Shown here piece after piece: positions 1,000 through 22,668 of a stretch of DNA of 39,494 bases; position 1 is the stretch's first letter; the number at the start of each line of letters is the position of its first letter. A program made the translations under genes and the position numbers. The notes under the pieces are model-generated. The model worked only from the letters and a program-made list of their open reading frames with translations. It was not told the origin of the DNA and made no database searches. Origin of the DNA: Clostridia bacterium (GTDB taxonomy: Bacteria; Bacillota; Clostridia; RUG12999); contig JAAWTG010000024.1 of the NCBI GenBank assembly GCA_022801925.1, forward strand, positions 1-39,494, read 5' to 3'.

Positions 1000-1043
1000 T
1001 ATCAAACGTTTACGAAAAATATAATTTTCCTATCGCAATCAAC

Positions 1044-1080
1044 AAAAGCGCGATAGGCTCAAGTTGCCTGTCGCGCTTTT
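1044..1080 (-). terminator. Intrinsic terminator of the Fic gene
   Basis: Arms 1044-1058 and 1066-1080 pair over 15 bp with one G-U. The stem is GC-rich (GCGCGATAGGC core) and ends in TTTT on both strands. It lies just beyond the Fic stop codon, and also closes any plus-strand readthrough from the truncated deacetylase. Confidence 0.8.
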
Positions 1081-1102
1081 ATAACAAATATTAGTCCGTA
1101 AA

Positions 1103-1723: not shown

Positions 1724-1775
1724 AAACAATCACACTCCATTCTACTATAGTATGCCATATCATCCATCAAAAATC

Positions 1776-1807
1776 AAGCCATCAATCATTTTTTTGATTG
1801 ATGGCTT
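1776..1807. terminator. Hairpin terminator at the end of the polysaccharide operon
   Basis: AAGCCATCAATCA (1776-1788) and its exact complement (1795-1807) flank a six-T loop. It lies between the flippase stop codon and the Fic gene and is the first terminator after the long minus-strand operon. The tail on the minus strand is GATTTTTG, a moderate U-tract. Confidence 0.65.
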
Positions 1808-1880
1808 TTGTACCACTATATACATTAGTGACTTCTAAAAAGCCCTTTGCCCGAACTTCCGGACAACCTCGGCAACGCTC

Positions 1881-3428: not shown

Positions 3429-3431
3429 TTT

Positions 3432-4562: not shown

Positions 4563-4564
4563 AA

Positions 4565-7047: not shown

Positions 7048-7066
7048 ACGCTTACCCTCCCTCCGG

Positions 7067-7864
7067 TCATTCAAATTTCTTGCCGTCCCTATAACCCTTC
7101 ATTCCGTCTTTCATGACTGCATATGCCTCAAAAAAACGCATGTTCACACCTTTTAAAATCTGTTTTTTCACAAGCAGAAGCCGTAGGCATATCAATCGCG
7201 CAAATGTCCCTGAAATTGCGGCACAGGCAGCTCCCTTGTCATACAGATATTTTTTATCATATCCTCGAAACCAAGTGGACGGTCGCTCTTTTTTCATGTT
7301 TGCAATATAGATAGGGACTGCAAAAATTTTCAGTCCTTTGTCCAGACAATCTCTTAAAAACAATGTGTCTTCGCCCGACTGATACATACAGCCTCCGCCA
7401 AAACATGTGTTAAACAATATCCCGCGCGTTTTCACCGCGCTGCTGCGAACCGCAATCCGATAGGTGGCAAAACGCATAAAATTACGCCATCTCACGCGGA
7501 ATTTTTTTTGAATCACATAATTTTCCGTATCGTCATATAAATTAAAAATCAACACATCTGCTTGCGGATTGTCGGCAAACGCTTTTTCTATCAACGCTTC
7601 ATATCCGTCCACATATCTCACATCATCGTCCGCCAGCAGGCAAATATCCGCGTCGGAACACATCAGCGCAAGGTTGCGGTTGATACCCACGCCACAGGTA
7701 TTTGTGCTAATCATTTGGGCGCAGAATGTATCAAAATGTTTTTTTTCTGTCTGATTCTGCCCGTTTTGGTTTGCAAAAATCACATCAGTCTGAATATTCA
7801 TTTTTTCCGCCAGTGAAAAATCGTTTTGATTGATTGTTGCGCACAAAACCTGTACCTTGCTCAC
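7067..7864 (-). CDS. GT-A-type glycosyltransferase (family 2-like)
   Basis: 265 residues starting at GTG 7864, seven bases after AAGGAGGG, which is far better placed than the upstream in-frame ATGs. The N-terminal part reads as a nucleotide-sugar-binding domain with LLADDDVRY (about residues 78-86) as the DxD site. The preceding segment INRNLAL matches the N-x-A pattern of GT2 enzymes. A conserved SGEDTLFLRDCLDKG follows, resembling the catalytic E/D-D motif. A basic amphipathic C-terminal helix probably binds the membrane. It lies 13 nt after the GT4 gene and 19 nt before the dehydrogenase, in one operon. Substrate is unknown. Confidence 0.8.
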   Translation of the reverse strand: MSKVQVLCATINQNDFSLAEKMNIQTDVIFANQNGQNQTEKKHFDTFCAQMISTNTCGVGINRNLALMCSDADICLLADDDVRYVDGYEALIEKAFADNPQADVLIFNLYDDTENYVIQKKFRVRWRNFMRFATYRIAVRSSAVKTRGILFNTCFGGGCMYQSGEDTLFLRDCLDKGLKIFAVPIYIANMKKERPSTWFRGYDKKYLYDKGAACAAISGTFARLICLRLLLVKKQILKGVNMRFFEAYAVMKDGMKGYRDGKKFE

Positions 7865-7877
7865 TTGTTTCCCTCCT

Positions 7878-9035
7878 TCAGGCCATGATAAGCCCATCAA
7901 ATTCCTCTACCGCTTTTTTATTATCAAACTCACTTTTTTGAAATTGCAAATCATGAAATTCTTTTAACAGCGTCAACAACTCTTCCTGCAACGTATCGTC
8001 GTCATTCGACAACACCTGTCCTGCATCCGGTTCCTGCACCATTTCATATGCTGAGGCAGTATCCGTTGTCCATATCGGCGTTCCCAAAATCCGCGCTTCT
8101 CCAAAAACCATTGGCGCCGCCTCATCATAAGAAGGCACCAGCAATACGTCAGCCGCTTTCAGATGCGGATAGGGATTCTCCAACATGCCAAGCAAAATAA
8201 TCTGCTGTTCCAGCTTATATTCCTTTATCAATTTTTCCGCTTTTTCCCAGTCGGGACCGTCGCCCGCAATTCTCCATACAAAATCAACACCGGCGTCTCT
8301 GATTTTCCCAAGCATGGGTATGATTCGTACAATGCCCTTTTCCCTTCGGAGCCGTGCGGCAGAAAATAGATTGATTTTTCCGTCTGTATAAGGCGCATCA
8401 TACGCCTTGGAAAGCGTTGCAATTTGTTCACAGTTATAGCAATTATGGACGGTTACAACCTTGCTTTCCAGCTGCGGCGCGACCTTTAAAATCTGCTTTT
8501 TCACGGAATCCGATACCGCCGCCACTTTATCAAATTGCATCAGCGTTTTTATATTATACTCACTCTTACCTTCATAGCGCTCCATATCACAATGAATGAA
8601 GCATATTTTTTGTTTTGCCTTGGCAGCATGTAAAACAAGCTCCGCACAGCCGCCGTAAAAACAATTTTCCGCTCCGTTTTGCATATAGGATATCGCTGCG
8701 TCATAGTCTCCGTCTATTTTCTCCATATGCCCCAGCAGCGGAAATACAACCTTCGTTTTCAAAATTCTTGTCAAAACAACCAGCAGTCCGCGCCACAGCA
8801 GCATAAAAATCCCTTTGTTTTTTGCCTGCGCGTGCGTCAGCCCCAGCGCCCTCACAAAACGGTTTGCTTTGGCAACCCGAACTGTTTCAGGAATTTCTTT
8901 CATCAGCGCGCCTTCCGGCGCTATCAAAAAAAGTGTGATTTCATAGTACGGCGCAATCTCTGAAAGAAGATTCGCCAACGCTTTTTGTATGCCGCCGATC
9001 TGCATATTATTGTTTATAATAAGAATCTTCTTCAT
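7878..9035 (-). CDS. Family 4 glycosyltransferase (GT-B fold)
   Basis: 385 residues. The N-terminal Rossmann half starts with the acceptor-binding glycine loop INNNMQIGGIQKAL. The C-terminal half begins at about FSAARLRREKG, has the nucleotide-sugar motif IAGDGP, and ends with the E-x7-E motif (EAAPMVFGE) typical of retaining GT4 enzymes. It probably transfers a sugar to the growing undecaprenyl-linked unit. The start lies 7 nt after the end of the Wzz-like gene. The donor cannot be deduced. Confidence 0.87.
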   Translation of the reverse strand: MKKILIINNNMQIGGIQKALANLLSEIAPYYEITLFLIAPEGALMKEIPETVRVAKANRFVRALGLTHAQAKNKGIFMLLWRGLLVVLTRILKTKVVFPLLGHMEKIDGDYDAAISYMQNGAENCFYGGCAELVLHAAKAKQKICFIHCDMERYEGKSEYNIKTLMQFDKVAAVSDSVKKQILKVAPQLESKVVTVHNCYNCEQIATLSKAYDAPYTDGKINLFSAARLRREKGIVRIIPMLGKIRDAGVDFVWRIAGDGPDWEKAEKLIKEYKLEQQIILLGMLENPYPHLKAADVLLVPSYDEAAPMVFGEARILGTPIWTTDTASAYEMVQEPDAGQVLSNDDDTLQEELLTLLKEFHDLQFQKSEFDNKKAVEEFDGLIMA

Positions 9036-9042
9036 GCGCCCG

Positions 9043-10521
9043 CTAGTCCTCCATGTCCTCTATCTGTTCAAGAGCTATATCCGGTATAATGGGGTCTGCC
9101 GACATGACTTCCTCTTCATAGCTTTCGTTTTCTGCATTTTCTTCTTCATTCAAACTGCTTTTCATCGCTTTGCTGTATGCCGCATATCTTTTTATAATTT
9201 CATATATAATCGCTGCCATACATGCAAGGATAAACCCAATGGCGATTGCAAACAATACATACATGGATGTATGCACATTTTTGTATGTCCGAACGCCCGT
9301 CAGACACTCAATATGCTTTTGCGGAATATGGGAATTATAGTCGTCAATCAGTGCAAACGCAATGCCGTATAGTTCTTTCAACTTGTCAAGCGTCTGCGTA
9401 ATATCCTGTTCCACATCTTTTTGATATTGTTCATAATTCACTCCCGCGCTTGCCGGCGTGGAGAAAATATTGATAACATCTGTGCAGTGCTGTGCGTCAA
9501 TAGTGCTGTTATTTGCACCCACACTGTCCGTAATATAATTTTTAATCAACGTATCATATGTTGTTTGTTCCTGAATGCGTTCAATTTTATCCTCTTCCAC
9601 ATTATGAATGATGGCTACATTGTCGTCCCCATCATTTTGGTTTGAATTATAGGAATTCGGCACGTCTTTGTTTGCATTGACATATGCATTCATTCTGTCC
9701 TCGGCAAGACTTACCTTTTCGAGAGAATTTTTGGCATTCAACTCGTTTTGTTCTTTCCGCTCTGTATATTTATTCATCAGCAAGGGTGTGTTCTTGCTGA
9801 GCTTTGCCGTATAGATTTCCGAAAAAATCTGCGGCATTTTAAAATCCGCCAAATAGGAAAATTCGTTGATTAAATCGGTAAATGTCAAACCTGTCGTAGG
9901 CGACCGATAGTCTTCATTTCCGATATATCCCTGCAAAACCTCAATAGAACCATCAATATTGTTCTGCAAAATTTCCGCTTGTTCAATGTAATCGTAATCA
10001 CTCTTGTTTAACGCATAATCAATTTCGCTGACCGTTGCAAGATAGATATATTTTTCATTATAATATTTGAAATAATTGTCAATCAGCCTGTCCAGTGTAT
10101 CACGTGTTTCAAAAAATGATTGATTCCCGAGATACGTCACTCTGTACACATTTGAATTATACTCATATTCCTCTCCGTCTTTCAGCTTTGCCTGCTGAAT
10201 CGCCGCCGCGTTGTCCGATATCACCGGCGTAATCTTCGTATGTGTCCGCACATTGTCATCGGTAAGTTCAAACGGCAAATCCTTGTTGGCGTTTGTAACA
10301 ACCTTGGGAGAAATAATTTCATTTGCATCAAATGCACTGCCGTCAAGCGCCTTTCCGTTGGACACACACGCGTCCTTATAACGTATCACGACCTCTGATG
10401 AATATGTCTGTATACGGTCAACGAACAAGCATGACAAAACAAGCGAGGCAGCAACCGTAACCAAAATCATAATTTTATGTTTGAATAAAAATACGAATAA
10501 ATCCCATATTGTAAGTTTCAT
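9043..10521 (-). CDS. Wzz-like polysaccharide co-polymerase (first of two)
   Basis: 492 residues with the two-transmembrane architecture of chain-length determinant proteins. One hydrophobic helix lies at about 16-34 and the other at about 423-446, enclosing a large, charged, helical extracytoplasmic domain. A cytoplasmic acidic tail (EEENAENESYEEEVMS) follows. There is no fused or neighbouring BY-type tyrosine kinase. The gene is adjacent to a second protein of the same architecture, and both have a related segment after the first helix (GKALDGSAFDANEI here, GLNPDGSRFNISEL in the neighbour). Together they probably form a heteromeric cage controlling the length or export of the polymer. Sequence similarity to canonical Wzz is weak, so the role rests on topology and context. 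Confidence 0.7.
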   Translation of the reverse strand: MKLTIWDLFVFLFKHKIMILVTVAASLVLSCLFVDRIQTYSSEVVIRYKDACVSNGKALDGSAFDANEIISPKVVTNANKDLPFELTDDNVRTHTKITPVISDNAAAIQQAKLKDGEEYEYNSNVYRVTYLGNQSFFETRDTLDRLIDNYFKYYNEKYIYLATVSEIDYALNKSDYDYIEQAEILQNNIDGSIEVLQGYIGNEDYRSPTTGLTFTDLINEFSYLADFKMPQIFSEIYTAKLSKNTPLLMNKYTERKEQNELNAKNSLEKVSLAEDRMNAYVNANKDVPNSYNSNQNDGDDNVAIIHNVEEDKIERIQEQTTYDTLIKNYITDSVGANNSTIDAQHCTDVINIFSTPASAGVNYEQYQKDVEQDITQTLDKLKELYGIAFALIDDYNSHIPQKHIECLTGVRTYKNVHTSMYVLFAIAIGFILACMAAIIYEIIKRYAAYSKAMKSSLNEEENAENESYEEEVMSADPIIPDIALEQIEDMED

Positions 10522-10531
10522 TTTATATTAC

Positions 10532-11881
10532 TCACTTTCTGTATTTTGTCATAATCAGCAGCGCTCGTTTCACAGTTGCCGTCTTTTTGGAAATGAAATG
10601 GTAGAAAAATTCCATATAAACAATGATAATCAGCGACAGGAAAAATCCCAGCAGCGCGAATTTAAAAATAATTTTCAAATCTATCGGGCTGCTTTTTTTG
10701 TCAATCTGATAGGTCAGATAGGACTCTGTCTTATATTTCAAATATTCATTGTCAACCTTAACAACCTTTTCCGACAACTCCGAAAAATCTTTTATGAGAG
10801 AAGTCAGATAATCATTAACATATTTCAGTTGTTCCGGAGAACTGTCGGCTGCCTGAGAAAGTTTTTGATAGTTATTGTTATAGCTGTCAATCTTTTTAGA
10901 AATGCGTGTTGCGTCCATACCATCGCTGTAAGAATCCCGCGCGATATCGTCTATCCCTGTTTTGGTACGGCTCATATAAAAACTATGACTGCTGTCCAGC
11001 GAAGGGATAAACGCTACGGCGGCAATATTAGGGTCATATTTATTCAGCGCATTTTTGGCAATATCCGACGCCTGCCTTTTTTTTCTGAACAAAATCCCGT
11101 TGTTGTCAATGAGATATTGCAGTTTACTCATATAGGCGGAACGATTTTTCGATATACGGTTTTGCACCACATATGCATTGAATTTCTCTAATTTTACATT
11201 TTTAAAGTTTTCCAGTTCATCTCTCAGCGTTCCGAAATTCATATTATCCTCGGTACGAAATGCGCGGTTTTCCTCACGGTGTATATTCAGCAGCGTGGAC
11301 ATTCTTTCCGCCTTGTTATACAAAATCTGATATATTTCCGTGTAATCATAATCCGAAAAATCATAGCTGTTTTCGTTAAACGTAAGTATAGAATTGTTCT
11401 CCGCATGATTTTTGTTAAAATAGTCCTCATAGCTTTGGGCAAGCGCCTCTAAAAACTCATACGTTTCATTTCTCCGCAGTTTGTTTTTCTGCGTATAATA
11501 TAAGTGAAACGACGTCGGCACATAGGTCGCCTGCGCGTCGCTCTTAATATCGGCGACCACCTCGTCCATTTCTCCTTGCGAGAACTGCGTTGTAATCTGC
11601 ATGGAGCTTCTGATGGAATCATTGGACTGATTTTTCATTTTCAGGTTCGCCTTTGCAGTATCCAAAATCTCATCACTGGTGAGTTCCGATATATTAAAGC
11701 GGCTGCCGTCAGGATTCAGCCCTTCCTCCGCGCCCGGATAGTTCAGACCTATCACCATTGATTTGCTGTTTGACAGTATCACAAAATGATACATTTCTCC
11801 TATGATTGCAAACGCAATCACCACTACTGCAATAAACGAAAAATATTTCTTTTTCAGTAATCTTTGCACTACTTTATACAT
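10532..11881 (-). CDS. Wzz-like polysaccharide co-polymerase (second of two)
   Basis: 449 residues with a transmembrane helix at about 13-33 and another at about 405-427 bracketing a helical periplasm-side domain rich in Asn, Asp and Lys. It lacks kinase or phosphatase motifs. The start at 11881 overlaps the end of the Wzy-like gene by 8 nt and follows GAGGAGAG. It shares the post-helix segment described for its neighbour, which suggests an old duplication. Probable function: partner in chain-length control or in handing polymer to the cell wall. Confidence 0.68.
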   Translation of the reverse strand: MYKVVQRLLKKKYFSFIAVVVIAFAIIGEMYHFVILSNSKSMVIGLNYPGAEEGLNPDGSRFNISELTSDEILDTAKANLKMKNQSNDSIRSSMQITTQFSQGEMDEVVADIKSDAQATYVPTSFHLYYTQKNKLRRNETYEFLEALAQSYEDYFNKNHAENNSILTFNENSYDFSDYDYTEIYQILYNKAERMSTLLNIHREENRAFRTEDNMNFGTLRDELENFKNVKLEKFNAYVVQNRISKNRSAYMSKLQYLIDNNGILFRKKRQASDIAKNALNKYDPNIAAVAFIPSLDSSHSFYMSRTKTGIDDIARDSYSDGMDATRISKKIDSYNNNYQKLSQAADSSPEQLKYVNDYLTSLIKDFSELSEKVVKVDNEYLKYKTESYLTYQIDKKSSPIDLKIIFKFALLGFFLSLIIIVYMEFFYHFISKKTATVKRALLIMTKYRK

Positions 11882-13094
11882 TGTCTTGCTCTCCTCTTAA
11901 TACTGCTTTCAAATGATTTTCCGGTAAAGTTTCTTCAAATGTCATGGCGCACATCATCATGATGTTCAGATATGGTTTAAACACATAAAACGTCAGGGAC
12001 ATGGAAAATGCCATCAGTGAGATAAATGCACAGGTATATAACGGCTGCCTTCGCACATTTCGGATAAAGCACACGCACAGCACAATAAAAAACAGCAATA
12101 GACCTATAATTCCTTTGTCATTGAATATTTGGATATAGGCGTTATGCGCTACGCCATTGCGAAATCCGCCGTCTTGCAAAATCTCGTAGGTTGAAAACAA
12201 CCCCGACCCCCGTATCGTCCTTTGGGGCGAACGCAGCGTGTAATCCAAAAGATAGCTCCAAATCTCAAAACGACCGCTGCCGCCGTCCTCCTTCACTGCC
12301 GTTATGGAATATCGATGCCGCACATCCTCCGGCAAATTAGGCACCACAACCGTCACAACCGCAAGCGCAACCAAGATGCTTGCCATAACAACAGCAATTC
12401 TGGCTTTAATGCTTTTAATACCAAACAATATATATACCAAAAGTCCTGCTAAGACACCGATCAGACCGCCGCGCGAACCTGTTTTTAATATCGCATAAAA
12501 CGACAGGATAATAATCAAAATATAGACCGGATAAAAGCGTCGTTTTTCCATAAACCGTTTTACGCTAATCAGCAGCGGCATAATAAAATAGGCGCAGAAA
12601 TGATTTTGGTCTTCTTCAAATCCCAGCACACGGATTACCGCGCGCTGCTCCGAACGGCTTACCACCTCGTTTGACGACAGCGCGATGATGATACACGTAA
12701 CCCCAACAATAATCCACGCGGATTCCATCCATTCCTTTTCCCGTCCGTTATAGATTCTCATACTGATAACCAGCAGCATGAACAATCCCAACGCCATGTC
12801 CTTTGTTGTGACAACAGTAATCGACTCATGGTACACCATCAAAAGAATGACGGTATATAAAATATAAATCACATATGTAAAATGGATATAATTCAGCGCC
12901 AATGCGCTTTTTCCCATGAGCATTCTGAGTGTTAAAACTGCCGCTATCGGCAGTGTAATAAGTTTTAACAATGAACCAAACGGTGTGGTGACTACCGTAA
13001 ATGGCAAACACACAAAATAGATACATGCCAAAATGCATTCCACACTTAACGCATCTTTTTGCACTTTATTTTCTGACTTTTTCACCATCATCAT
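11874..13094 (-). CDS. O-antigen ligase/polymerase-like membrane protein (Wzy)
   Basis: 406 residues, about ten hydrophobic segments, and the Wzy_C-type pattern. A large extracytoplasmic loop contains RFEIWSYLLDYTLRSP followed by GSGLF and HNAYIQIFNDKGIIGL, a combination characteristic of the O-antigen polymerase/ligase superfamily. A second conserved region has GSRGGLIGVLAGL. It should polymerise flipped repeat units on the outer face of the membrane. It overlaps the preceding glycosyltransferase by the 4-nt ATGA arrangement. A second Wzy-like protein is encoded at 18903-20273. Confidence 0.87.
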   Translation of the reverse strand: MMMVKKSENKVQKDALSVECILACIYFVCLPFTVVTTPFGSLLKLITLPIAAVLTLRMLMGKSALALNYIHFTYVIYILYTVILLMVYHESITVVTTKDMALGLFMLLVISMRIYNGREKEWMESAWIIVGVTCIIIALSSNEVVSRSEQRAVIRVLGFEEDQNHFCAYFIMPLLISVKRFMEKRRFYPVYILIIILSFYAILKTGSRGGLIGVLAGLLVYILFGIKSIKARIAVVMASILVALAVVTVVVPNLPEDVRHRYSITAVKEDGGSGRFEIWSYLLDYTLRSPQRTIRGSGLFSTYEILQDGGFRNGVAHNAYIQIFNDKGIIGLLLFFIVLCVCFIRNVRRQPLYTCAFISLMAFSMSLTFYVFKPYLNIMMMCAMTFEETLPENHLKAVLRGEQDNV

Positions 13095-13921
13095 ATTTTA
13101 TCCTTTACTGATTTTCGCTGCCGCCTTATTTTATCGACCGTGATTTTGAAGGGGCGCATCATCGTTCTAATACGCCAAACTGCAGTGTTCATTTCCCATG
13201 TCGGCAAAAAGCGCAACGTTTTTTGCATCAAATAAAAATTGCATTTATATTTTTTTATCACACTAAGTCCCGCACCTGTTAATCCGTCTCTGCGGCAGTA
13301 GTAACAATACAACGGTTCGTCCAGAAACAAAACGCTGTTTGCACCTGTATATGCTTCAATTGAAAACGCTGCGTCTTCGGCAGTTTGGTATACAAACGAA
13401 AATCGAATATGATCCACGATTTTCCTTCTGAATATGGCACAGCAGACACTGTTTAAATCAATACCGCCGATAAAAAGTGGATATACGCTTTGACAAAACC
13501 GTTCTTTTGTCACAAATTCATTTTGAAACGCAACCTTTGGCTGCCATTTTCCGCCATTTTCAAAAATTTGCAGATACGAAAATCTAACAATATCTGCACC
13601 AGTATTCTCCTGCGCTTCCAAAATTTTACGCAGCGCACCCGGCTGATACCAATCATCGGCATCGCAGTAAGTGATAAACTCGCCGCACGCGTTTTCAAGA
13701 CCAATGTTTCTTGTGCGTGCAACGCTACCGCCGTTTTGCTCCAGTGCTATCAATTTAATTTGATTTTTATATTTTTCCAGCATTTCAAGCGTTCTATCCT
13801 GTGACCCGTCATCAACCACAACAATCTCCGTGTCGGCTTTCTGGGAGATGATTGAAGTAATGCAGCGGTCAATATATTGTTCCGCGTTATATGCCGCAAC
13901 GATAACCGATAATTTTTTCAT
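13091..13921 (-). CDS. Family 2 glycosyltransferase
   Basis: 276 residues with a complete GT2 signature: LSVIVAAYNAEQYIDRC at the N-terminus, VVDDGSQD near residue 36, and the DxD site CDADDW near residue 91. A later EDAAF segment near residue 185 fits the catalytic base region. The C-terminus is short and very basic. The start is 15 nt after the initiating sugar transferase stop, so this enzyme may add the second sugar of the repeat unit. That order is inference from gene position. Confidence 0.87.
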   Translation of the reverse strand: MKKLSVIVAAYNAEQYIDRCITSIISQKADTEIVVVDDGSQDRTLEMLEKYKNQIKLIALEQNGGSVARTRNIGLENACGEFITYCDADDWYQPGALRKILEAQENTGADIVRFSYLQIFENGGKWQPKVAFQNEFVTKERFCQSVYPLFIGGIDLNSVCCAIFRRKIVDHIRFSFVYQTAEDAAFSIEAYTGANSVLFLDEPLYCYYCRRDGLTGAGLSVIKKYKCNFYLMQKTLRFLPTWEMNTAVWRIRTMMRPFKITVDKIRRQRKSVKDKI

Positions 13922-13936
13922 ATCCGTACTCTAATA

Positions 13937-15307
13937 TCACTGTTCTGCAGGAGACTCTGCCAAATGCATGTTATCCGCCTTTGGTTTGTCCTCCTTTACT
14001 CCTGCTGCCGACTCTTTCATAAACACCACAATTACGGTTTGAATCAGAAGTTTAATGTCAAACCATATCGAAAATTTATCTATATACATCCAATCAAACA
14101 GTATTTTATCGGACACTCTTGTATTATATTGTCCATAAACCTGCGCCAGTCCGGTTAGACCTGCCTTGAACATATATCGCAAATCATAATTTCTCACTAT
14201 TTTACTATACTCATCCGCATATATCGGTCTCTCCGGTCTGGGTCCGACAAACGACATCTCGCCTTTAAAAATATTGATAAGCTGCGGCAGTTCGTCCATT
14301 CTATGCACCCGAAGCACACGACCAACCCTTGTGATTCGTTTATCGTTTTCCGTTGCAAGACTGTTATTATGTTCTGCCTCTTTCACCATCGTTCTAAATT
14401 TGATGATGTTAAATCGTTTTTTATACATGGTATACCGCTCCTGTTTATGAAAAACAGGACCTGTTGTATCCAGTTTAATGGCAATGGCAATTAGCCCAAA
14501 CGCCGGAGAGAGCAAAATTAAGCCAAAAGCTGAAACAACAATATCAAACATGCGCTTAACAGCTTTATGTAAAATTCTGCCTCTGTCACTTTTCAGCCCT
14601 AGCACCAAAGTATCTCCAACATTCGCAATACTGCTTCCGATAAGACTGATATTCTCAACCGTCGGAACGAGACAAACCGGTTTCGCAAGCCATTTGGCGA
14701 GAAGAATAATGCGGTCAGCACGTTCCCTGTTCACCGTTTCCACTACCAAAAGGCTATGGGCATTTTTTACTTCACTTTCTATTTCACTTTCATCAAACTC
14801 TACAACATTAATTGCTTTGACGGTTCCATAATCCACCGCATTGCGCATCAATTTTTCTGAAAACCGTTTCGGGCAATTGTTTTCCCATAAGATGAGAAGC
14901 GTTTGTTTTTTTCTTTTCGCCAAAAGGATTTGAAACAGCAGCATTCGCAAGCCTAGCATGACCGGATAACACGCAGCAAAAATAATCAACATCTGCGAAA
15001 CAGGCAGCAAAACTCGTCCACCCGTCATGTACCAAATCACAAAAAATATAACAGCCGTGGGTACTAGCGCTACCGCAAGCACAATCGGATGCCGTTTCTT
15101 TTGAATTGTGTAGGAACTGGAATCATTATAGGAATCCAACATATGCATCAATGTAACGACAAAACAGATGCCTGCCAGGTAAGTAATACCATCTATCGGA
15201 CATTCCAAAATAACCCTGCCCACCACAAAAAATGTCAGGACTATTCCAAAAATGTCTAATAGTATACCACACCATTTTCCCAATCTGTTCATATTATCTA
15301 TGTGCAT
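13937..15307 (-). CDS. Undecaprenyl-phosphate sugar-1-phosphate transferase (WbaP/CpsE type)
   Basis: 456 residues. Four hydrophobic segments in the first 130 residues are followed by a cytoplasmic Rossmann-like domain. The polyisoprenyl-phosphate hexose-1-phosphate transferase domain follows: KRMFDI at 251, a re-entrant hydrophobic helix, KFRTM at 303-307, MDELPQL at 337-343 and GPRPER at 355-360. It starts repeat-unit synthesis by loading the first sugar phosphate onto undecaprenyl phosphate. AGGAGG sits 6 nt before the ATG at 15307. It is the first gene of the long operon, downstream of a terminator and a separate promoter. The C-terminal tail (about 30 residues, charged) is longer than usual. 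Confidence 0.92.
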   Translation of the reverse strand: MHIDNMNRLGKWCGILLDIFGIVLTFFVVGRVILECPIDGITYLAGICFVVTLMHMLDSYNDSSSYTIQKKRHPIVLAVALVPTAVIFFVIWYMTGGRVLLPVSQMLIIFAACYPVMLGLRMLLFQILLAKRKKQTLLILWENNCPKRFSEKLMRNAVDYGTVKAINVVEFDESEIESEVKNAHSLLVVETVNRERADRIILLAKWLAKPVCLVPTVENISLIGSSIANVGDTLVLGLKSDRGRILHKAVKRMFDIVVSAFGLILLSPAFGLIAIAIKLDTTGPVFHKQERYTMYKKRFNIIKFRTMVKEAEHNNSLATENDKRITRVGRVLRVHRMDELPQLINIFKGEMSFVGPRPERPIYADEYSKIVRNYDLRYMFKAGLTGLAQVYGQYNTRVSDKILFDWMYIDKFSIWFDIKLLIQTVIVVFMKESAAGVKEDKPKADNMHLAESPAEQ

Positions 15308-15329
15308 AAATATCCTCCTAATACAGATA

Positions 15330-15372
15330 AAAGCGGAACCAGCTGCACAAAAAACTGCACCAATTCCGCTTT
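15330..15372 (-). terminator. Terminator between the EAL gene and the long polysaccharide operon
   Basis: AAAGCGGAA (15330-15338) pairs with TTCCGCTTT (15364-15372), with an inner TGCA/TGCA pairing around an A6 loop. On the minus strand the stem is followed by T-rich sequence. It should stop transcripts from the EAL gene. The promoter at 15373-15400 directs initiation inside its first arm, so that promoter's own transcripts cannot form the full stem. Confidence 0.65.
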
Positions 15373-15400
15373 CTTATACAGCATATATTCTTTCATTCAA
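15373..15400 (-). promoter_or_regulatory. Candidate promoter of the long polysaccharide operon
   Basis: Read on the minus strand: TTGAAT (15395-15400), 16 bp, TATAAG (15373-15378). The match is good but not perfect. It is placed just upstream of the WbaP-type gene and immediately after the terminator that separates it from the EAL gene. Confidence 0.55.
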
Positions 15401-15466
15401 ACATTTTAGAATTCTATTTCACAAATTGTCTGTTTTGTTAATATTTTAATGCAACCGATTTATTGT

Positions 15467-16966
15467 TTACAGATATATCACTCTGGCATCGTTTTCGTCA
15501 ACATCATCCTCTTTGCTATCTGTCTGCGTTTGGTCAGGTATTTCCGCCGTTTCAACCCTTTCCTCTACGCCGTCTTCTGCATGATTTTCTTCCTCAATTG
15601 CCGCCGCACTCTCCTGAACTGTATCGTCCGCCGGCTGATTCTTCTTTTTACCGCGCTGTTCTATTAAAACTTTATCAAAGTCTTCCTCACTCAGTGGTTT
15701 ATAAAAATAAAATCCCTGCAAAATATCGCAGCCCGCTTCCTTGGCAACTTGTTTTTGCTCGGCAGTTTCAATCCCGCTGCAAAACACCACCGCGTCAATC
15801 TCTTTAGCAAGTTTCACAACATTGTCAAAGACAATTCTCCCTGCGCCTTCTGTTCCGTTTGCAAGCAGGCTTCTGTCAAGTTTAATCACGTTGGGTTCAA
15901 GGCTTGATACATCGTTCAGCGATGTATACCCTTTGCCGAAATTATCCAAACAGAAATTAAAACCAGCATTTTTCAGCTGCATAATATTGCCTTTGAAGAT
16001 TTCCTCATTTCGCTCTGCCCTATCCTGCGACATCTCAATGACAATCATATTTTCGCCAATACCACTTTGCGAAAAAATATTTATCATACGCTGTGCAACG
16101 CCTTCGCGCGCAAGCGTGCTTTTCGCCATTTTACAAGTTATAATGGTATCCCAATCAAGCCTTTTTGACGCCCACTCACAACATTTTTCAAACACGAGCA
16201 TATCAAATTTTTCGTGAAGATTTTCTTTTTTAATGGCATTGAGTACTTGACTTGGCATGATATTTTTGGAGTTTTCTTCTTTTAGCCGCGTCAGCACTTC
16301 ACACCCAACCACTTCACCTGTATGTGCGTCCAAAAACGGCTGATACATTTGATAAAACCCATCATTATCGATAAAATTTTCAATGTTCCTTTCAATATTA
16401 TCATTTTCGAGAATTAATTTCAAGTCGTCCTGATCTGCTATTAAATATTTGTTTTTGTTTGCTTTGGTCACGCGCGCAGCCTTTTTTGCATAACCGGCAG
16501 CCTTTAGAAATTCTGTCTTTGTCTCCGACACCATATACCCGCCCATGAAGACTTCTATCATCTTATATTCTTTTCTGTCTGCCTCCAAAAAGCTTCCGCA
16601 AAATCTTTCCAACGCGTCTTTGCTGCAGGTTGTCACGACAACATAGTTATTTCCGTCTACTTTCGCCGCCTCTCCGCTTCCATATTTACATAGCTGTAAA
16701 ACCTCATCTGTCACCTGATCCTGTATACGCATTAATTCTTTTCTGTCCACCATAGTTTGTAAATTTTCATAAAAAATATTAATGTACATCACCGCACAGT
16801 CTTGCTTTTTTTTCAACGATCGCTCATAAAACTTCTTGACGCCCGACATGCCCGATAATAGTGGCGTATCGCTGCCGTCATTTCCGGTTCCGGACATTCC
16901 AAAAAACGCTATCGCCAGACATATTACTGCAATAAATCCTATAATTAAAATTGTCATATCTATCAT
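15467..16966 (-). CDS. Membrane-anchored EAL-domain protein with degenerate catalytic residues
   Basis: 499 residues: an N-terminal transmembrane helix (4-23), a region of about 45-190 that could be a decayed GGDEF-like domain, an EAL domain at about 200-430, and a very acidic disordered tail. Active EAL proteins hydrolyse cyclic di-GMP. Here E223 (in EVL), E311, D341, K362, E400 and Q417 are kept, but the conserved Asn of the VNxS motif is Lys279 and the Asp-Asp pair of DDFG is D341-N342. It is therefore probably a c-di-GMP receptor or a scaffold rather than a phosphodiesterase. It shares a transcript with the metallophosphoesterase (27-nt gap). The position within the locus suggests it gates polysaccharide production, by inference. 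Confidence 0.82.
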   Translation of the reverse strand: MIDMTILIIGFIAVICLAIAFFGMSGTGNDGSDTPLLSGMSGVKKFYERSLKKKQDCAVMYINIFYENLQTMVDRKELMRIQDQVTDEVLQLCKYGSGEAAKVDGNNYVVVTTCSKDALERFCGSFLEADRKEYKMIEVFMGGYMVSETKTEFLKAAGYAKKAARVTKANKNKYLIADQDDLKLILENDNIERNIENFIDNDGFYQMYQPFLDAHTGEVVGCEVLTRLKEENSKNIMPSQVLNAIKKENLHEKFDMLVFEKCCEWASKRLDWDTIITCKMAKSTLAREGVAQRMINIFSQSGIGENMIVIEMSQDRAERNEEIFKGNIMQLKNAGFNFCLDNFGKGYTSLNDVSSLEPNVIKLDRSLLANGTEGAGRIVFDNVVKLAKEIDAVVFCSGIETAEQKQVAKEAGCDILQGFYFYKPLSEEDFDKVLIEQRGKKKNQPADDTVQESAAAIEEENHAEDGVEERVETAEIPDQTQTDSKEDDVDENDARVIYL

Positions 16967-16993
16967 CTAAGTTCACCTCTTTTGACTTGCCGT

Positions 16994-17842
16994 TTACTGT
17001 CGTTTCAGCGTTACCATAACCACTTCCGGCGGATTAAAAATCCTCATTTTCTGCGGATTATAATCACAGCCGCGGCTTACAATCATTGTCGTATTCATTT
17101 CCTTGTACATACCCTCTGTATATTGTGGAAACAGTTCTCCGTTTTTTCCAAACACTCCACCCACAAACGGTACACGTATAATGCCTCCGTGCATATGTCC
17201 CGATAAAATCAAATCTACCGGTAAATCATGCAGTTTCGGATACACATCAGCGCGATGATATGCTAAAATCTGAAATGCATTTTCAAGTTTGTTGCTTTGT
17301 ACCGTCTTTTTGATTTGTTCCACGATTTCCTCGCCGATAACTTCATCACCTTTATCTTCAATGCCAATGATTCGTATGGTTTCTCCGTCTTTCGTAATGT
17401 CATCTGCGGAATTTATCAGCATCGTAACGCCAGCTTCCCGCAATGCGCCGGAAATCTGTTTTCGCACCACGTATCCGTTTGATGCTTCATGATTGCCGAA
17501 AATTCCATAAACCGGAATCTCTTCCGGCAGAGCGTTTACAATCTTCAACACATTGTCTAAATTGGTATCCGGCTGCTGAATCATGTCGCCTGCAAACAGC
17601 ACAATATCTGGCTTGGACTGGCGCAGCAGTGCTATGAACTTATCGGCATATACGGAATTATGGATATCCGAAATGACCGCAATCCGACAGCCGTCAAAAG
17701 CACCTGGCAGCTTTTCACTGGTATAGTCATATTCTGTCAGATATACGTTTTGGTTCATCACAAAATTAATTCCCGCAGCAACGCCTGCCGCAATGACAAT
17801 GATAAGCAGAAAAACAAAAAATCCTTTTATGATGCGTTTCAT
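16994..17842 (-). CDS. Membrane-anchored calcineurin-like metallophosphoesterase
   Basis: 282 residues with a signal-anchor helix at about 5-27 and the complete two-metal phosphoesterase set: SDIHN (D59, H61), GD (D86), GNHE (N117, H118), AYHRAD and GHMHGG. The arrangement matches the YkuE/LpxH-related group of extracytoplasmic phosphoesterases. The substrate is not predictable; lipid-linked or polymer phosphodiesters would fit the context. It is the first gene of a two-gene unit with the EAL protein, driven by the promoter at 18060-18088 through a leader of about 210 nt that contains the repeat array. Confidence 0.87.
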   Translation of the reverse strand: MKRIIKGFFVFLLIIVIAAGVAAGINFVMNQNVYLTEYDYTSEKLPGAFDGCRIAVISDIHNSVYADKFIALLRQSKPDIVLFAGDMIQQPDTNLDNVLKIVNALPEEIPVYGIFGNHEASNGYVVRKQISGALREAGVTMLINSADDITKDGETIRIIGIEDKGDEVIGEEIVEQIKKTVQSNKLENAFQILAYHRADVYPKLHDLPVDLILSGHMHGGIIRVPFVGGVFGKNGELFPQYTEGMYKEMNTTMIVSRGCDYNPQKMRIFNPPEVVMVTLKRQ

Positions 17843-17885
17843 TTGTGTTCCTCACCACTCGCATTGAATGTTTAATCTATGTCAA

Positions 17886-18028
17886 GCAAAGTTGAATCTC
17901 CATGTTATGCCGCCGCACCGGCTGCCGCATTTCATGCGGCAAAGTTGAGACACCTCACCCTGCGTCCAGAGTGTTATGCGCCGCCCATGGGTAGCCAAAC
18001 AAAAGTCGAATCTCTTATGCCTACGCAG
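17886..18028. repeat. Degenerate repeat array in a leader region
   Basis: Three imperfect units follow one another. Each starts near GGCAAAGTT, GGCAAAGTT or GCCAAACAAAAGT and continues with TGAATCTC-like and TTATGCC-like blocks. The last unit (AGTCGAATCTCTTATGCCTA, 18004-18023) is the reverse complement of the repeat found at 23611 and matches others at 27522 and 39455. The array fills most of the 366-nt gap between metallophosphoesterase and amidase. Confidence 0.55.
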
Positions 18029-18059
18029 CTTCTTAAATTAAAGTAGACTCTTTACGTCT

Positions 18060-18088
18060 ATTTTATCATGTCTATTCAACTTTGTCAA
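18060..18088 (-). promoter_or_regulatory. SigA-type promoter for the metallophosphoesterase-EAL unit
   Basis: On the minus strand TTGACA (18083-18088), 17 bp, TAAAAT (18060-18065). Only one position departs from consensus. Transcription would start near 18053. Confidence 0.8.
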
Positions 18089-18120
18089 TTCATTTTGTTG
18101 AAATGCGTATAGCAATTTTA

Positions 18121-18160
18121 CCCCCTCCCCAAAGGCACTCACATCTTTGGGGGAGAGGGC
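18121..18160. repeat. GC-rich palindrome after the amidase gene
   Basis: CCCTCCCCAAAG (18123-18134) pairs with CTTTGGGGGAGAGGG (18145-18159). No U-tract follows on the minus strand, so it is a weak terminator at best and may be a palindromic intergenic repeat; a similar C/G-rich hairpin is seen near 39066-39090. Confidence 0.5.
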
Positions 18161-18208
18161 AGACCCATTTAGGTATAAAAGCGTCTATTCTCCTATGTTT
18201 CGACACTT

Positions 18209-18892
18209 CTATGCCGCTTCTGACAATTTTCGATTCACTGCTTCTGCAATGTCCGGCAGTCTGCTTTTTAGATAGGGTCCCGGACATTCCGTTTTATCGG
18301 AGAACATGCTGTGAATGGTCAAATTCCCGTTCGTGTCTCCGGTAAATTCCAGTTTCTCAATGTTATTACGCCGACAAATATCCGTACAAAGTTCAATCAG
18401 CGCGTCAATTGACGCATCGCTCACATGCCAGTTATTGCCAATTTCGTCGTTGGAAACCTCTATGGTTACAGCGCGGTGATCGTTTTCTCCGCTGCTTGAC
18501 GTCCACGCACGGTTTTTTTCCTCCACATAGCAGCCCACTTTTCCATCAATATCAATTGCATAATTTGCAGAAGCCTGTCTGTCCCGCTGGGCAAACAAAT
18601 CCCCAAGTTTTTCCAAAGTGGTGATTCCCGCCATATGATGCACTGTGATTCTGTCAATCTTATTTTCTCGCGGGAAATCCGCATTGCAGCTTAAATATGC
18701 ATATTCAATCAGGGGGCTGTTTGCTGCGATTACCTCGTTTAATTCCGCCTCCGTCAGTTTTCGTCCGACATTTTCAGGCAATTTCCCATTCAGGGTATAC
18801 CATAACCCAACAATAACCACCAGTATGGCACAAAATCCGGCCAAAAGCAGCCAGATATCCAAATAGTTTCTTGCCCTCGTTTGCTCTTTCAT
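18209..18892 (-). CDS. Membrane-anchored N-acetylmuramoyl-L-alanine amidase (Amidase_2/PGRP fold)
   Basis: 227 residues: a signal anchor at about 12-33, a linker, then a type-2 amidase domain. Zinc ligands are visible as H85/H86 (ITVHHMAG), H204 (LTIHSMF) and C213 (ECPGPYL), matching the H-H-C set of this zinc hydrolase family, which cleaves the bond between N-acetylmuramic acid and the stem peptide. AGGAGGTG precedes the ATG. It lies 10 nt after the Wzy-like gene in the same transcript. In this context it might open peptidoglycan for attachment or passage of the polymer. Phage or prophage lysin is a less likely origin because of the membrane anchor and operon setting. Confidence 0.87.
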   Translation of the reverse strand: MKEQTRARNYLDIWLLLAGFCAILVVIVGLWYTLNGKLPENVGRKLTEAELNEVIAANSPLIEYAYLSCNADFPRENKIDRITVHHMAGITTLEKLGDLFAQRDRQASANYAIDIDGKVGCYVEEKNRAWTSSSGENDHRAVTIEVSNDEIGNNWHVSDASIDALIELCTDICRRNNIEKLEFTGDTNGNLTIHSMFSDKTECPGPYLKSRLPDIAEAVNRKLSEAA

Positions 18893-18902
18893 ATCACACC
18901 TC

Positions 18903-20273
18903 CTACGTCATTTGCACATACCAATAAAAATTATATGCAAATATCATGGCAAACACACCGAATATTATTTTTGTGGTGACAGAATTCAGCCGCCTGCCGC
19001 CCTGCGACGGATCTCCTCCCGACATGATTGCCATTGAAGTGATTTTTATATTAAAAAACGCCGCGTCTACCATATTGTGGAAAAGAAAGGCGCCCCACCC
19101 CGCTCTGCCATAGAGCCGCTTATCTTTTATGAGACATCTCACCGCCACAATAACCATCATAGCCATTGCAACCAGTCCCAATTCCGTCCCTACATGAATC
19201 AACGCGTTATGGATATGGTTGACGTTGAAATAGATGTCGCTGTCATATAAATTTAACTGCCGCCAGTTGCTCGGGCCGATTCCAAAGATTGGATTCATCT
19301 TAAAATAACGCACCCCGTTTTTCATCATCTCCAGCCGTTCGGCAAAAGTTGCCGTAAAACTGGGTCTGATAACGATAAGCATAGCAGCAAACAGCAGACT
19401 CAACACCGAAAGCCCAACCGCTATCGCTCTATATTCCGCCAAAAACCGTCCCATTTTCTCCCATTTTACGATAACCGCCGCAAAGTAGAGCAGCAGACAG
19501 ACATACAGCCATGTTTTCCCCACGCGCGAAACTGCAAGATACAACAAAATTCCCAGTCCCAGTCCGATACTCATCCGCGCAAGCAAACACCCGCTGCGCC
19601 CTACAGCCTTCTTGACACCAAATTTCCGAATATCAGCAATGATAATAACAACAATTCCCACCGCCATAGCGGCAAAGCTGCCCATCGACAAGGTCAATGC
19701 AAGCGCAATCAACAATAATGGTTCTATGCAGTTCCACCACCGCATACCGCTTGCTTTTTCCTCCGATATATCATTCATATAGGAAAACCAGCCCAACACA
19801 AGAAATATGCCCATACCATTAGGATTTCCTATCACCCCGCCAAGCCTTGCCGATGAATGCAGTAGCGCCGCGTCACACACAAACTCTCCGATACCGGCAA
19901 GCGCAACAAACGCCGTCAAAATAATACACAGTTTCCTGAGCAAGCATATCCCATCCTTATCCAGATATGCCATGAGAAGATATATGACCGAAAAAGCCGC
20001 CTGAATAGACGTAAATCCTTCTGCAATATTTCCATGCGCTAGATAAGCCGAAATAAGACTGAACAGATTATAAATCATCAGTGGCAGCAATACCCATAAA
20101 TCTACCGCCACTGCGCCCTGCATAAAACCAACTACACAAAGCATGATTCCCAGAGCACAAAAAATTGCCATCTTTCCTGTGCCGCCAAGCACAAAAATGC
20201 ATATTGTTAAAAACAGGCAGGCGACAATATATTGATTTTTCACTTCTTTCAGTAGATGCTTTAATTTATCCAT
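18903..20273 (-). CDS. Wzy-like O-antigen polymerase/ligase membrane protein (second in the locus)
   Basis: 456 residues with about eleven hydrophobic segments. The superfamily pattern is present: GGVIGNPNGMGIFLVLGW in the middle, and in the large outer loop ERLEMMKNGVRYFKMNPIFGIGPSNW followed by NHIHNALIHVGTELGL. It is the first gene of its unit, with AGGAGAG before the ATG and a leader of about 110 nt. Having two Wzy-like proteins in one locus suggests one polymerises and the other ligates or extends a different product; which is which cannot be told from sequence. Confidence 0.82.
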   Translation of the reverse strand: MDKLKHLLKEVKNQYIVACLFLTICIFVLGGTGKMAIFCALGIMLCVVGFMQGAVAVDLWVLLPLMIYNLFSLISAYLAHGNIAEGFTSIQAAFSVIYLLMAYLDKDGICLLRKLCIILTAFVALAGIGEFVCDAALLHSSARLGGVIGNPNGMGIFLVLGWFSYMNDISEEKASGMRWWNCIEPLLLIALALTLSMGSFAAMAVGIVVIIIADIRKFGVKKAVGRSGCLLARMSIGLGLGILLYLAVSRVGKTWLYVCLLLYFAAVIVKWEKMGRFLAEYRAIAVGLSVLSLLFAAMLIVIRPSFTATFAERLEMMKNGVRYFKMNPIFGIGPSNWRQLNLYDSDIYFNVNHIHNALIHVGTELGLVAMAMMVIVAVRCLIKDKRLYGRAGWGAFLFHNMVDAAFFNIKITSMAIMSGGDPSQGGRRLNSVTTKIIFGVFAMIFAYNFYWYVQMT

Positions 20274-20350
20274 AGCGCAGCTCTCCTACCTAAATGATTG
20301 CAAAATATAAAATGTCAGAGTATTTTTTTAGTACCGCATCTATTGATTCC

Positions 20351-20376
20351 ACATAGAAGCATCGATCCTTCTATGT
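20351..20376 (-). other. Hairpin in the leader of the first polysaccharide operon
   Basis: ACATAGAAG (20351-20359) and CTTCTATGT (20368-20376) form a perfect 9-bp stem with an 8-nt loop. It lies just after the transcription start predicted for the promoter at 20391-20419. No U-tract follows on the minus strand, so RNA stability or protein binding is more likely than termination. Confidence 0.5.
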
Positions 20377-20390
20377 TTCGTTACCCCTAT

Positions 20391-20419
20391 ATTTTATTAG
20401 CATTTCATACATAAGTCAA
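20391..20419 (-). promoter_or_regulatory. SigA-type promoter of the Wzy-amidase unit
   Basis: On the minus strand TTGACT (20414-20419), 17 bp, TAAAAT (20391-20396). It lies between the recombinase terminator and the Wzy-like gene. Confidence 0.75.
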
Positions 20420-20589
20420 TCTTTCTGTTGCTCCTCGCCAAAAGTTTGTGAAATTAGACAAAAAAAAAGAAAGTTAGACCCATTTTTCTACAAAAATTAC
20501 AATTCTTTTTTATGTAATATCATTTTCCGACGAGCCCCTTCTTCTCAAAAGAGTTTCCCCTTCTCTGCCGAAATCAAATTTCAGCCAAA

Positions 20590-20620
20590 AAAGAGTCGGA
20601 CTTCTTATATCCGACTCTTT
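20590..20620 (-). terminator. Intrinsic terminator of the recombinase gene
   Basis: AAAGAGTCGGA (20590-20600) and TCCGACTCTTT (20610-20620) form a perfect 11-bp stem, followed on the minus strand by TTTTTTGG. It isolates the recombinase transcript from the cargo operons. Confidence 0.85.
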
Positions 20621-20638
20621 GGGGTTAGCACCCACGGG

Positions 20639-22084
20639 TTATATTTTCCACATAATATTCACATGTTCGCCGCTAAGCAGGATTTTATCAATAAACTGTG
20701 CGGCGACAATCTTCTTCTCTTCAAATGCGAGAGCGTGAAAATTAAGCTGTTCCGTTTGATGCGGCTTATTTTCACCTCGTTTCATGAGCGTCTCCCGCTC
20801 TTTATGAAGCGCTTCAATTTTTTCAGTAATATACGAACCAGAAACCGCACTGCTTTCCGCCAACACCTCCACCAGGCGGTCTATTTTTTGCTCAATCTCT
20901 AAAATTTGAGAAGCCCTTTCTTTTGTATCCGGCAGATTTACCTTGGACGGCGTTTCCTCCAGCATTTCTGCAATCCTGCCTGCAACATAATGTTCCAGTT
21001 CTCGGAGGTTCACTTGAACAGCAGTGTCACAGATTGCAAAATTCGACCTTCCCGAGCAGACTAAATAGTGTTTATCTTCTGTTTTCATATAATTAATTTT
21101 AATTGCATAGCCGCATTGTTCGCATTTCATCAGTCCGGTCAGCCAGGAATATTTTCCTGCATTTTTTCTGGAAATTTGCGGATTTTTGTTTAGTTTATGT
21201 TGCACCCGAATCCATAAACCGGAATCAATGAATCCCTCGTGACTCGCAACCGTCAGCATTTGTCCTTCCATGGAATGATATTGATTTTTGTCCCGCGCCC
21301 GCCGCCCGATAATATTACATGCATGAATACCATCAAAACACTCCATATCCTGCTGTATCTGTAATCCGTTTGCCGCATAATACCAGTAAACATCTTCGTC
21401 TGCCTTGACATATAAAGGACTATGCAGGATGCGTGACAGCGTAACATTGTCCCACGCCTCCCGTTTTGGACCGTGAATGCCTTTTTCCGTCAAAGTCCTC
21501 GCAATGCTGCGCAAAGAGGTATTCGGCTTTGCATATTCTTCAAAAACAACTTGTACCACTTTTGCCTTTTCGTTGGCAGCAAGCGAAGATACCTGCCGTC
21601 CTTCTGCCATGATCTTTGTCAAATCAAACCCATATGGCGCAGGTCCGCCCGGCCATGCACCAAGCCGGAAACGGTGGACATAGTTGTCCTTCACACGCTC
21701 AGCAATGGTTTCCCGCTCCAGTTGGGCAAACACCAACACAATATGAAGCATTGCCCGCCCCATAGGCGAGGATGTATCGAACTGCTCCGTCACAGACTGA
21801 AACTCCACGCCATATTGCTGCAAAACTTCCCAAAGCCTACTGAAATCCGCAATGGAACGGCTAAATCTATCTAAACGATATACATAAATTTTTTGGATTT
21901 CTCCTTTTTTCACCGATTCCATGAGTTCCATAAACGCGGGACGCTTGGTATTTTTTCCCGAATAGCCCTTGTCGCAGAAAACGCACACCCCCTCTCCCGC
22001 ATATTTTTGGCACAAATCAATTTGTCCCGCAACAGATAAACTGTCTTTTTTATCAACGGATTGTCTTGCATATATCGCATTCAT
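20639..22084 (-). CDS. Large serine recombinase (site-specific integrase/excisionase)
   Basis: 481 residues. The N-terminal resolvase domain has the nucleophile Ser9 in YARQS and the active-site arginines R70 and R73 in YRLDRFSRS, plus R110 and the ERETIAERV helix. The recombinase domain follows (about 145-310), with GGPAPYGF and WDNVTLSRIL. A zinc ribbon uses C321, C324, C343 and C352. A coiled-coil stretch at about 400-450 is typical of the control element for integration versus excision. At 481 residues it is on the short side for large serine recombinases. It lies at the right end of the element, reads away from attR, and its ATG overlaps the stop of a 41-codon ORF by 4 nt. It is the obvious enzyme for the att sites described here. 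Confidence 0.93.
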   Translation of the reverse strand: MNAIYARQSVDKKDSLSVAGQIDLCQKYAGEGVCVFCDKGYSGKNTKRPAFMELMESVKKGEIQKIYVYRLDRFSRSIADFSRLWEVLQQYGVEFQSVTEQFDTSSPMGRAMLHIVLVFAQLERETIAERVKDNYVHRFRLGAWPGGPAPYGFDLTKIMAEGRQVSSLAANEKAKVVQVVFEEYAKPNTSLRSIARTLTEKGIHGPKREAWDNVTLSRILHSPLYVKADEDVYWYYAANGLQIQQDMECFDGIHACNIIGRRARDKNQYHSMEGQMLTVASHEGFIDSGLWIRVQHKLNKNPQISRKNAGKYSWLTGLMKCEQCGYAIKINYMKTEDKHYLVCSGRSNFAICDTAVQVNLRELEHYVAGRIAEMLEETPSKVNLPDTKERASQILEIEQKIDRLVEVLAESSAVSGSYITEKIEALHKERETLMKRGENKPHQTEQLNFHALAFEEKKIVAAQFIDKILLSGEHVNIMWKI

Positions 22085-22206
22085 GCTATCGCACTTTCCT
22101 TTATCTTAGCTGCTCGCAGCAAAAGGATACAGCGGCGGTGCAATTCCGCTTGTTTCACGGAACGTTTTGCTTCATTTGTTTCTAAATATGTATTGGTAAT
22201 TTTCAT
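22081..22206 (-). CDS. 41-residue basic protein coupled to the recombinase (candidate directionality factor)
   Basis: A short ORF with an excellent Shine-Dalgarno (GAGGAGGGGG about 8 nt before the ATG at 22206) and an ATGA overlap with the recombinase start. The product begins MKITNTYLETNEAK and is rich in Lys, Arg and Ala, probably one or two helices, with no domain I recognise. Translational coupling predicts equal expression with the recombinase. Small partners of large serine recombinases often act as recombination directionality factors, so this is a fair hypothesis; a simple leader peptide that loads ribosomes is the alternative. Confidence 0.7.
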   Translation of the reverse strand: MKITNTYLETNEAKRSVKQAELHRRCILLLRAAKIKESAIA

Positions 22207-22251
22207 TTGTATCGTCCCCCTCCTCATAACAATCCTATGCTGACACCCAAC

Positions 22252-22369
22252 CAAAATATGACGACAGTTTTAGACTAAACTGAAAATAATTTATGAACTT
22301 TGATTCTCATGGCAGCGTATGACCTTTTTTCTCTTTACTCCCGCGCGAACGCAAAACTGTCATATTCTG
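22252..22369. repeat. Inverted repeat in the right end of the element
   Basis: CAAAATATGACGACAGTTTT (22252-22271) is mirrored by AAAACTGTCATATTCTG (22353-22369), differing by a 3-nt gap and one base. An extra small dyad (CAGTTTTAG/CTAAACTG) lies at 22265-22282. The repeats sit between the recombinase unit and attR, a usual place for operator or accessory recombination sites. The rest of 22207-22410 shows no gene. Confidence 0.5.
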
Positions 22370-22389
22370 AAAACGTGGCAGTCAGAGCG

Positions 22390-22424
22390 TTTCCAACTGT
22401 TGCCGGTAGGGATAGTCTGGACTG
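22390..22424 (+). other. attR, right recombination junction
   Basis: The inner half carries TTTCCAACTGTTGC (22390-22403), the exact reverse complement of the arm at 979-992. The central GA is at 22411-22412, and the outer half (22413-22424) is deacetylase coding sequence ending in ACTG, mirroring the CAGT of the left side at equal distance. The arm-to-centre distance is 7 bp, identical to attL. Confidence 0.8.
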
Positions 22425-22668
22425 GAAAGACCTTTCCGCCGCGGAAATCACACAGCGCGTGAGTGAAAATGTGCAAAACGGCTCCATTTGCCTGTTCCAT
22501 AACGAGGCGAAACATACGCCGGAAGCGCTGGAACAATTGATTCCAAAATTGCAGCAGGAAGGATATTCGTTTGTTCCTGTTTCGCAACTCATTTATAAAC
22601 AAAGCTATTCCATCGACCACGCCGGGCGGCAAAGCGCCTTGCAAGCGACGGGCGCAAATCTATATTAA
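22411..22668 (+). CDS. PdaB-type polysaccharide deacetylase, C-terminal part of an interrupted gene
   Basis: Codons 22411-22665 encode the missing end of the deacetylase at 442: DSLDWKDLSAAEI, the motif SICLFHNEAKHTPEAL that holds the conserved His-Asn, and the family ending YSFVPVSQLIYK. It has no start codon or Shine-Dalgarno of its own; the open frame runs back through the element only by chance (to 22300). Joined to codons 442-969 it gives a 261-residue protein, close to the usual 250-260 of PdaB. The junction rebuilds Q-W-D-V-D-S-L-D-W. In the integrated state this piece should not be translated as a functional product. Confidence 0.9.
   Translation, partial: DSLDWKDLSAAEITQRVSENVQNGSICLFHNEAKHTPEALEQLIPKLQQEGYSFVPVSQLIYKQSYSIDHAGRQSALQATGANLY

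Follow-up and report, generated by a model that had tools for sequence, protein, structure and literature searches.

A small gene beside a large serine recombinase

What is the role of a 41-codon open reading frame (ORF) that lies directly upstream of a large serine recombinase (LSR) gene and overlaps it? The question arises from a 39,494-nucleotide stretch of DNA from a Clostridia bacterium (the window, from genome G000; coordinates refer to it unless another locus is named). A sequence-only reading had described the ORF, a strong Shine-Dalgarno sequence, an ATGA overlap and a basic helical product next to an LSR, and had put the product forward as a candidate directionality factor (RDF). The description proved accurate in each of these respects.

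20639..22084, minus strand: large serine recombinase, 481 aa; PF00239, PF07508 and PF13408 above cut-off
22081..22206, minus strand: candidate RDF gene, 41-aa peptide; ORF with homologues directly upstream of the LSR in six relatives
22219..22225, minus strand: Shine-Dalgarno GAGGAGG of the peptide gene, read from the sequence and aligned in homologous loci

The ORF is read from 22206 to 22081 and encodes MKITNTYLETNEAKRSVKQAELHRRCILLLRAAKIKESAIA, ending in a TGA stop that overlaps the ATG of the LSR gene (22084..20639). The GAGGAGG sequence stands 12 nt before the peptide ATG. Starting at the in-frame TTG at 22254 would yield a 57-aa form, but conservation begins only at the ATG. The peptide is basic, and structure prediction gives a single helix at residues 12-40, with a mean pLDDT of 80-93 across residues 11-40.

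The neighbouring protein has the Resolvase, Recombinase and zinc-ribbon domains of an LSR, and the catalytic motif YARQS is invariant in five of its relatives. Among the relatives of the LSR, identity to it is 95% for G001/L005, 86% for G002/L006, 69% for L007, 65% for G175/L065, 64% for G179/L067 and 61-62% for G379/L008. Most of the genomes were assembled from metagenomes, and for G001, G002 and G179 contig breaks are a limitation. No close relative was found in viral contigs, phages or plasmids, where the best phage match is 34% and the best plasmid match 38% identical. The window's own genome encodes a second LSR that is 37% identical (G000:C80:21135-22505).

The recombinase lies at one end of an element that splits pdaB

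Going beyond the sequence-only reading, we find that the LSR marks one end of a 21.4-kb element interrupting pdaB, a gene for a PdaB-type sporulation deacetylase, and that its operon has a sigma-E-like promoter. The parts of the interrupted locus are as follows.

442..971, plus strand: pdaB-like gene, 5' half; TIGR02764 profile positions 1-130; probable TTG start at 442, ORF readable from ATG 412
952..992, plus strand: attL, CAGTGGGATGTGGA/ACCACACGCAACAGTTGGAAA, from the sequence and compared with the family's intact pdaB
972..22412, no strand assigned: intervening element, 21.4 kb, between the pdaB halves; Fic, exopolysaccharide, EAL, amidase and LSR genes
22390..22430, plus strand: attR, TTTCCAACTGTTGCCGGTAGGGA/TAGTCTGGACTGG, from the sequence; arms inverted relative to attL, central GA
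22411..22668, plus strand: pdaB-like gene, 3' half; TIGR02764 profile positions 128-191

Joining the flanks gives a 271-aa frame containing QWDVDSLDWK, as in the uninterrupted genes of the family's other genera. TIGR02764 (PdaB) is the best family for the joined protein by 73 bits; the match spans the whole profile and scores 215 bits, where the curated cut-off is 237.4 bits. L047, a relative with an uninterrupted gene, does not reach this cut-off either (222.5 bits), so 'PdaB-like' is the safe name. The att cores read GGGATGTGGA/ACCACACGCAACAGTTGGAAA for attL and TTTCCAACTGTTGCCGGTAGGGA/TAGTCTGG for attR, and the arms contributed by the element are inverted repeats around a central GA, as in the attP of serine integrases.

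All three genomes of the genus have an interrupted pdaB, which is uninterrupted in the family's six others. Within the genus, G002 has a collinear copy of the element and G001 has both of its ends, so the insertion is old and shared. In all seven carriers pdaB is split at the same codon; the diverged ones (G175, G179, L007 and L008) carry other cargo where compared, which means that one site has been targeted repeatedly.

Strong purifying selection has acted on both halves of pdaB in the time following the shared insertion. When G000 is compared with G002, dN is 0.013 and dS 0.435 for the 5' half; in the 3' half, 25 changes are synonymous and 2 are nonsynonymous (dN 0.010, dS 0.682; binomial P = 7e-15). 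This indicates that the joined pdaB is probably used. Each half holds only some of the conserved active-site motifs of the NodB fold and should not work on its own, and excision that rejoins pdaB would be the simplest explanation. As in the class of elements that intervene in sporulation genes (skin, gin, SPbeta/spsM, yin), a sporulation gene is interrupted by an LSR element and has an att site in each half, and joining restores the frame of a gene that selection appears to have kept functional.

Two elements that otherwise differ each have a gene for a Fic protein close to an att end (window 1103-1729 and L008 669-1826), identified by PF02661 in the window and by eye in L008. Within the exopolysaccharide cluster of the window, an EAL-domain protein (PF00563; 15467-16966) hints at cyclic-di-GMP control. 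In G175 (L072, G175:C42:20000-39900; 8785-11613) the LSR operon sits at the end adjoining the pdaB 5' half, whereas in the window it adjoins the 3' half; the att sites have the same orientation in both, and the LSR module seems to have been turned around inside the element. In L007 (1827-3617), L008 (1872-3695) and L072 (9481-11211), a divergent gene encoding about 576-607 aa separates the att end from the peptide gene; the window element lacks it, and Pfam gave no match for its copies in L007 and L008. An amidoligase-like gene is common to L007 (8221-9327, PF12224), L008 (6337-8360) and the G175 element, and in L008 and G175 a neighbouring gene of about 300 aa resembles, by appearance, a class II glutamine amidotransferase.

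A sigma-E-like promoter in front of the peptide gene

22232..22261, minus strand: sigma-E-like promoter, TCATATT-N15-CATAGGAT, preceding the peptide gene

The motif before the peptide and LSR genes resembles sigma-E promoters. The window contains a single match to the pattern KMATATT-N15-CATANNAT, against 0.02 expected, and a sigma-E-like motif stands at the same place and spacing before the peptide gene in all seven loci, with a spacer that differs in sequence and, in G179 and L008, a weaker match at -35. A 15-nt spacer is at the long end for sigma-E, and the -10 element of sigma-K promoters is similar to that of sigma-E. A search for a sigma-E site before pdaB itself gave no convincing match. 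The sigma-E regulon of Bacillus subtilis includes pdaB (spoVIE), and a sporulation screen tabulates the pdaB mutant at 5% (PMC4703394). The sporulation protein SpoIVA was found in six of the seven carriers (G000, G001, G175, G179, G379 and the L007 genome); it was not found in G002, which is 85% complete.

These data bear on the strongest competing account, in which an ordinary mobile island has destroyed pdaB and the peptide is an RDF serving horizontal transfer, with no part in sporulation. Mobility is implied by the targeting of one site in several families, and there is a relaxase-like gene in L007 with a homologue in G175. However, a destroyed gene would fit poorly with the purifying selection seen on both halves across the genus; the C-terminal half alone should not complete the deacetylase active site, and the sigma-E-like promoter is conserved. 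We therefore regard loss of pdaB to such an island as unlikely.

The peptide is conserved together with the recombinase

The sequence-only reading had proposed looking for the ORF upstream of homologous recombinases, and had held that conservation of only the Shine-Dalgarno sequence and the overlap would speak against a directionality factor. We see that the amino acid sequence itself is kept. Homologous ORFs of 37-41 aa lie directly upstream of the LSR gene in L005/G001, G002, G175, G179, L007 and L008/G379; in G002 a contig edge cuts the copy beside the LSR gene, and the peptide was located on the adjoining contig. Identity between lineages is 30-88%, and M1, T6, H23, R24, R25, C26 and L28 are invariant in the alignment, giving a motif HRRC.

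Among 382 genomes of the class, the peptide profile gave strong matches (74-80 bits) in six, with all remaining matches at or below 21 bits. These six are exactly the genomes that encode this LSR, and the peptide gene comes directly before the LSR gene each time, as expected of an RDF that is conserved with a specific recombinase. Conservation at the peptide level is well beyond chance. The dN/dS ratio of the peptide gene is about 0.15 for G000-G002 and about 0.11 for L008-G179; the pair G000-G001 is too close to inform the ratio, with 2.7 synonymous against 7.3 nonsynonymous changes, which cluster towards the C end. The window element and the complete G175 element have no genes in common other than those for the peptide and the LSR, and their cargo otherwise differs; further matches between the two elements were shadow frames of the LSR gene.

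The peptide belongs to no Pfam or NCBIfam family and its profile matched no PDB entry, SprB included. Similarity to a known RDF was thus not seen in these collections, although it is not a strict requirement. Few RDFs of serine integrases are known, since they are short and unlike one another. Weak matches were obtained to a PHROG family of unknown function (E 0.008) and to Pfam cIII (E 0.07). A second DNA match to the peptide in the window's own genome (G000:C94) falls in an unrelated coding sequence, and a weak protein match (G000:C33) is not surrounded by anything that corresponds to the operon; both were rejected as chance. Small ORFs upstream of distant LSRs of 35-39% identity (L030, L032, L036 and L040) were likewise rejected as relatives of the peptide, with an hhalign probability of 4%. 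These ORFs, of about 43-54 aa, are partly alike and are possibly further directionality factors.

Alternatively, the peptide might not be a true RDF: it might regulate or repress the operon by binding DNA, or inhibit the LSR and so block integration. A small, basic, helical product encoded by the first gene of an operon would suit such a role, but the strict pairing with the LSR and the precedents of Skr and GirX favour direct action on the recombinase. The roles also overlap, since RDFs block integration too, as GirX does (PMC5595907). We give this possibility slightly less weight than that of a mobile island. Least probable of all is a leader peptide whose translation merely sets LSR expression by coupling while its amino acid sequence is incidental: the Shine-Dalgarno sequence and ATGA overlap of the window and a GTGA overlap in G175 would fit, but the residues HRRC and T6 do not vary among lineages with LSRs of only about 61-69% identity, the dN/dS ratio lies clearly below 1, and the overlap gives way to a short gap in L007, L008 and G179.

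A proposed role in excision during sporulation

The proposal of a directionality factor thus gains support from the conservation of the peptide, its one-to-one pairing with the LSR and its presence in the complete G175 element. We consider it likely that the 41-aa peptide serves as RDF for the LSR encoded next to it, and that the two belong to a new skin-like, pdaB-intervening element excised in sporulation. The LSR alone would have integrated the element into an attB inside pdaB. During sporulation, as the promoter sequence suggests, sigma-E in the mother cell would drive the peptide-LSR operon; the peptide would bind the LSR and redirect it to recombine attL with attR. We infer that the element would then be excised and pdaB rejoined in frame in the compartment that needs PdaB, while the spore chromosome would retain the element.

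More broadly, though with somewhat less assurance, the loci probably represent an undescribed group of skin-like elements in several families of Clostridia that split pdaB and carry a new RDF family, with an exopolysaccharide locus here tied to mother-cell excision. If so, the mother cell would give up this locus for PdaB and the spore would keep it. The mother-cell genes split by such elements include sigK, spsM, gerE, spoVFB, spoVR and yabG, which pdaB (spoVIE) would join as a recurring target in Clostridia; no description of a pdaB-intervening element was found in the literature searched. Each new integrase-RDF pair is also a potential tool for reversible DNA editing. Comparative genomics here yields an integrase, its likely RDF, attL, attR and the deduced attB and attP together, making the pair directly testable.

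Comparison with known systems

The systems compared share some features of this locus and lack others. Modelling of other sporulation RDFs placed their binding at one shared region of their recombinases (PMC10747680). SprB, which acts with SprA in SPbeta, is a 58-aa RDF with a mother-cell promoter, and the split gene, spsM, concerns spore polysaccharide; however, SPbeta is an active prophage in which sprB adjoins one half of spsM and sprA the other (PMC4191935), and our peptide profile has no sequence match to the solved SprA-SprB chain. In the C. difficile skin element, CD1234 is likewise a small RDF under sigma-E, associated with an LSR (CD1231) splitting a sporulation gene, but it is acidic (pI 5.5), has 72 aa and is transcribed apart from the LSR gene, which is driven by sigma-A (PMC5025042).

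GirX, from the gin element in gerE of B. cereus, is closest in size. It is a 42-aa RDF shown in vitro to direct excision of gin, a non-phage island in a split sporulation gene; the target and cargo of gin differ from those of the window element, and girX was located by deleting a region (BCE4620-BCE4625) and is described without adjacency to girC, the recombinase gene (PMC5595907).

The closest parallel in layout is Skr of the B. subtilis skin element, a 64-aa RDF encoded directly upstream of spoIVCA, overlapping it and under sigma-E control (PMC6957869). In both cases a small ORF precedes and overlaps an LSR gene behind a sigma-E promoter (here sigma-E-like), within an element that splits a mother-cell sporulation gene. 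The skin element splits sigK rather than pdaB, and Skr is longer, with an overlap of 101 nt; the comparison is one of layout. On this analogy, the peptide most likely works as Skr does.
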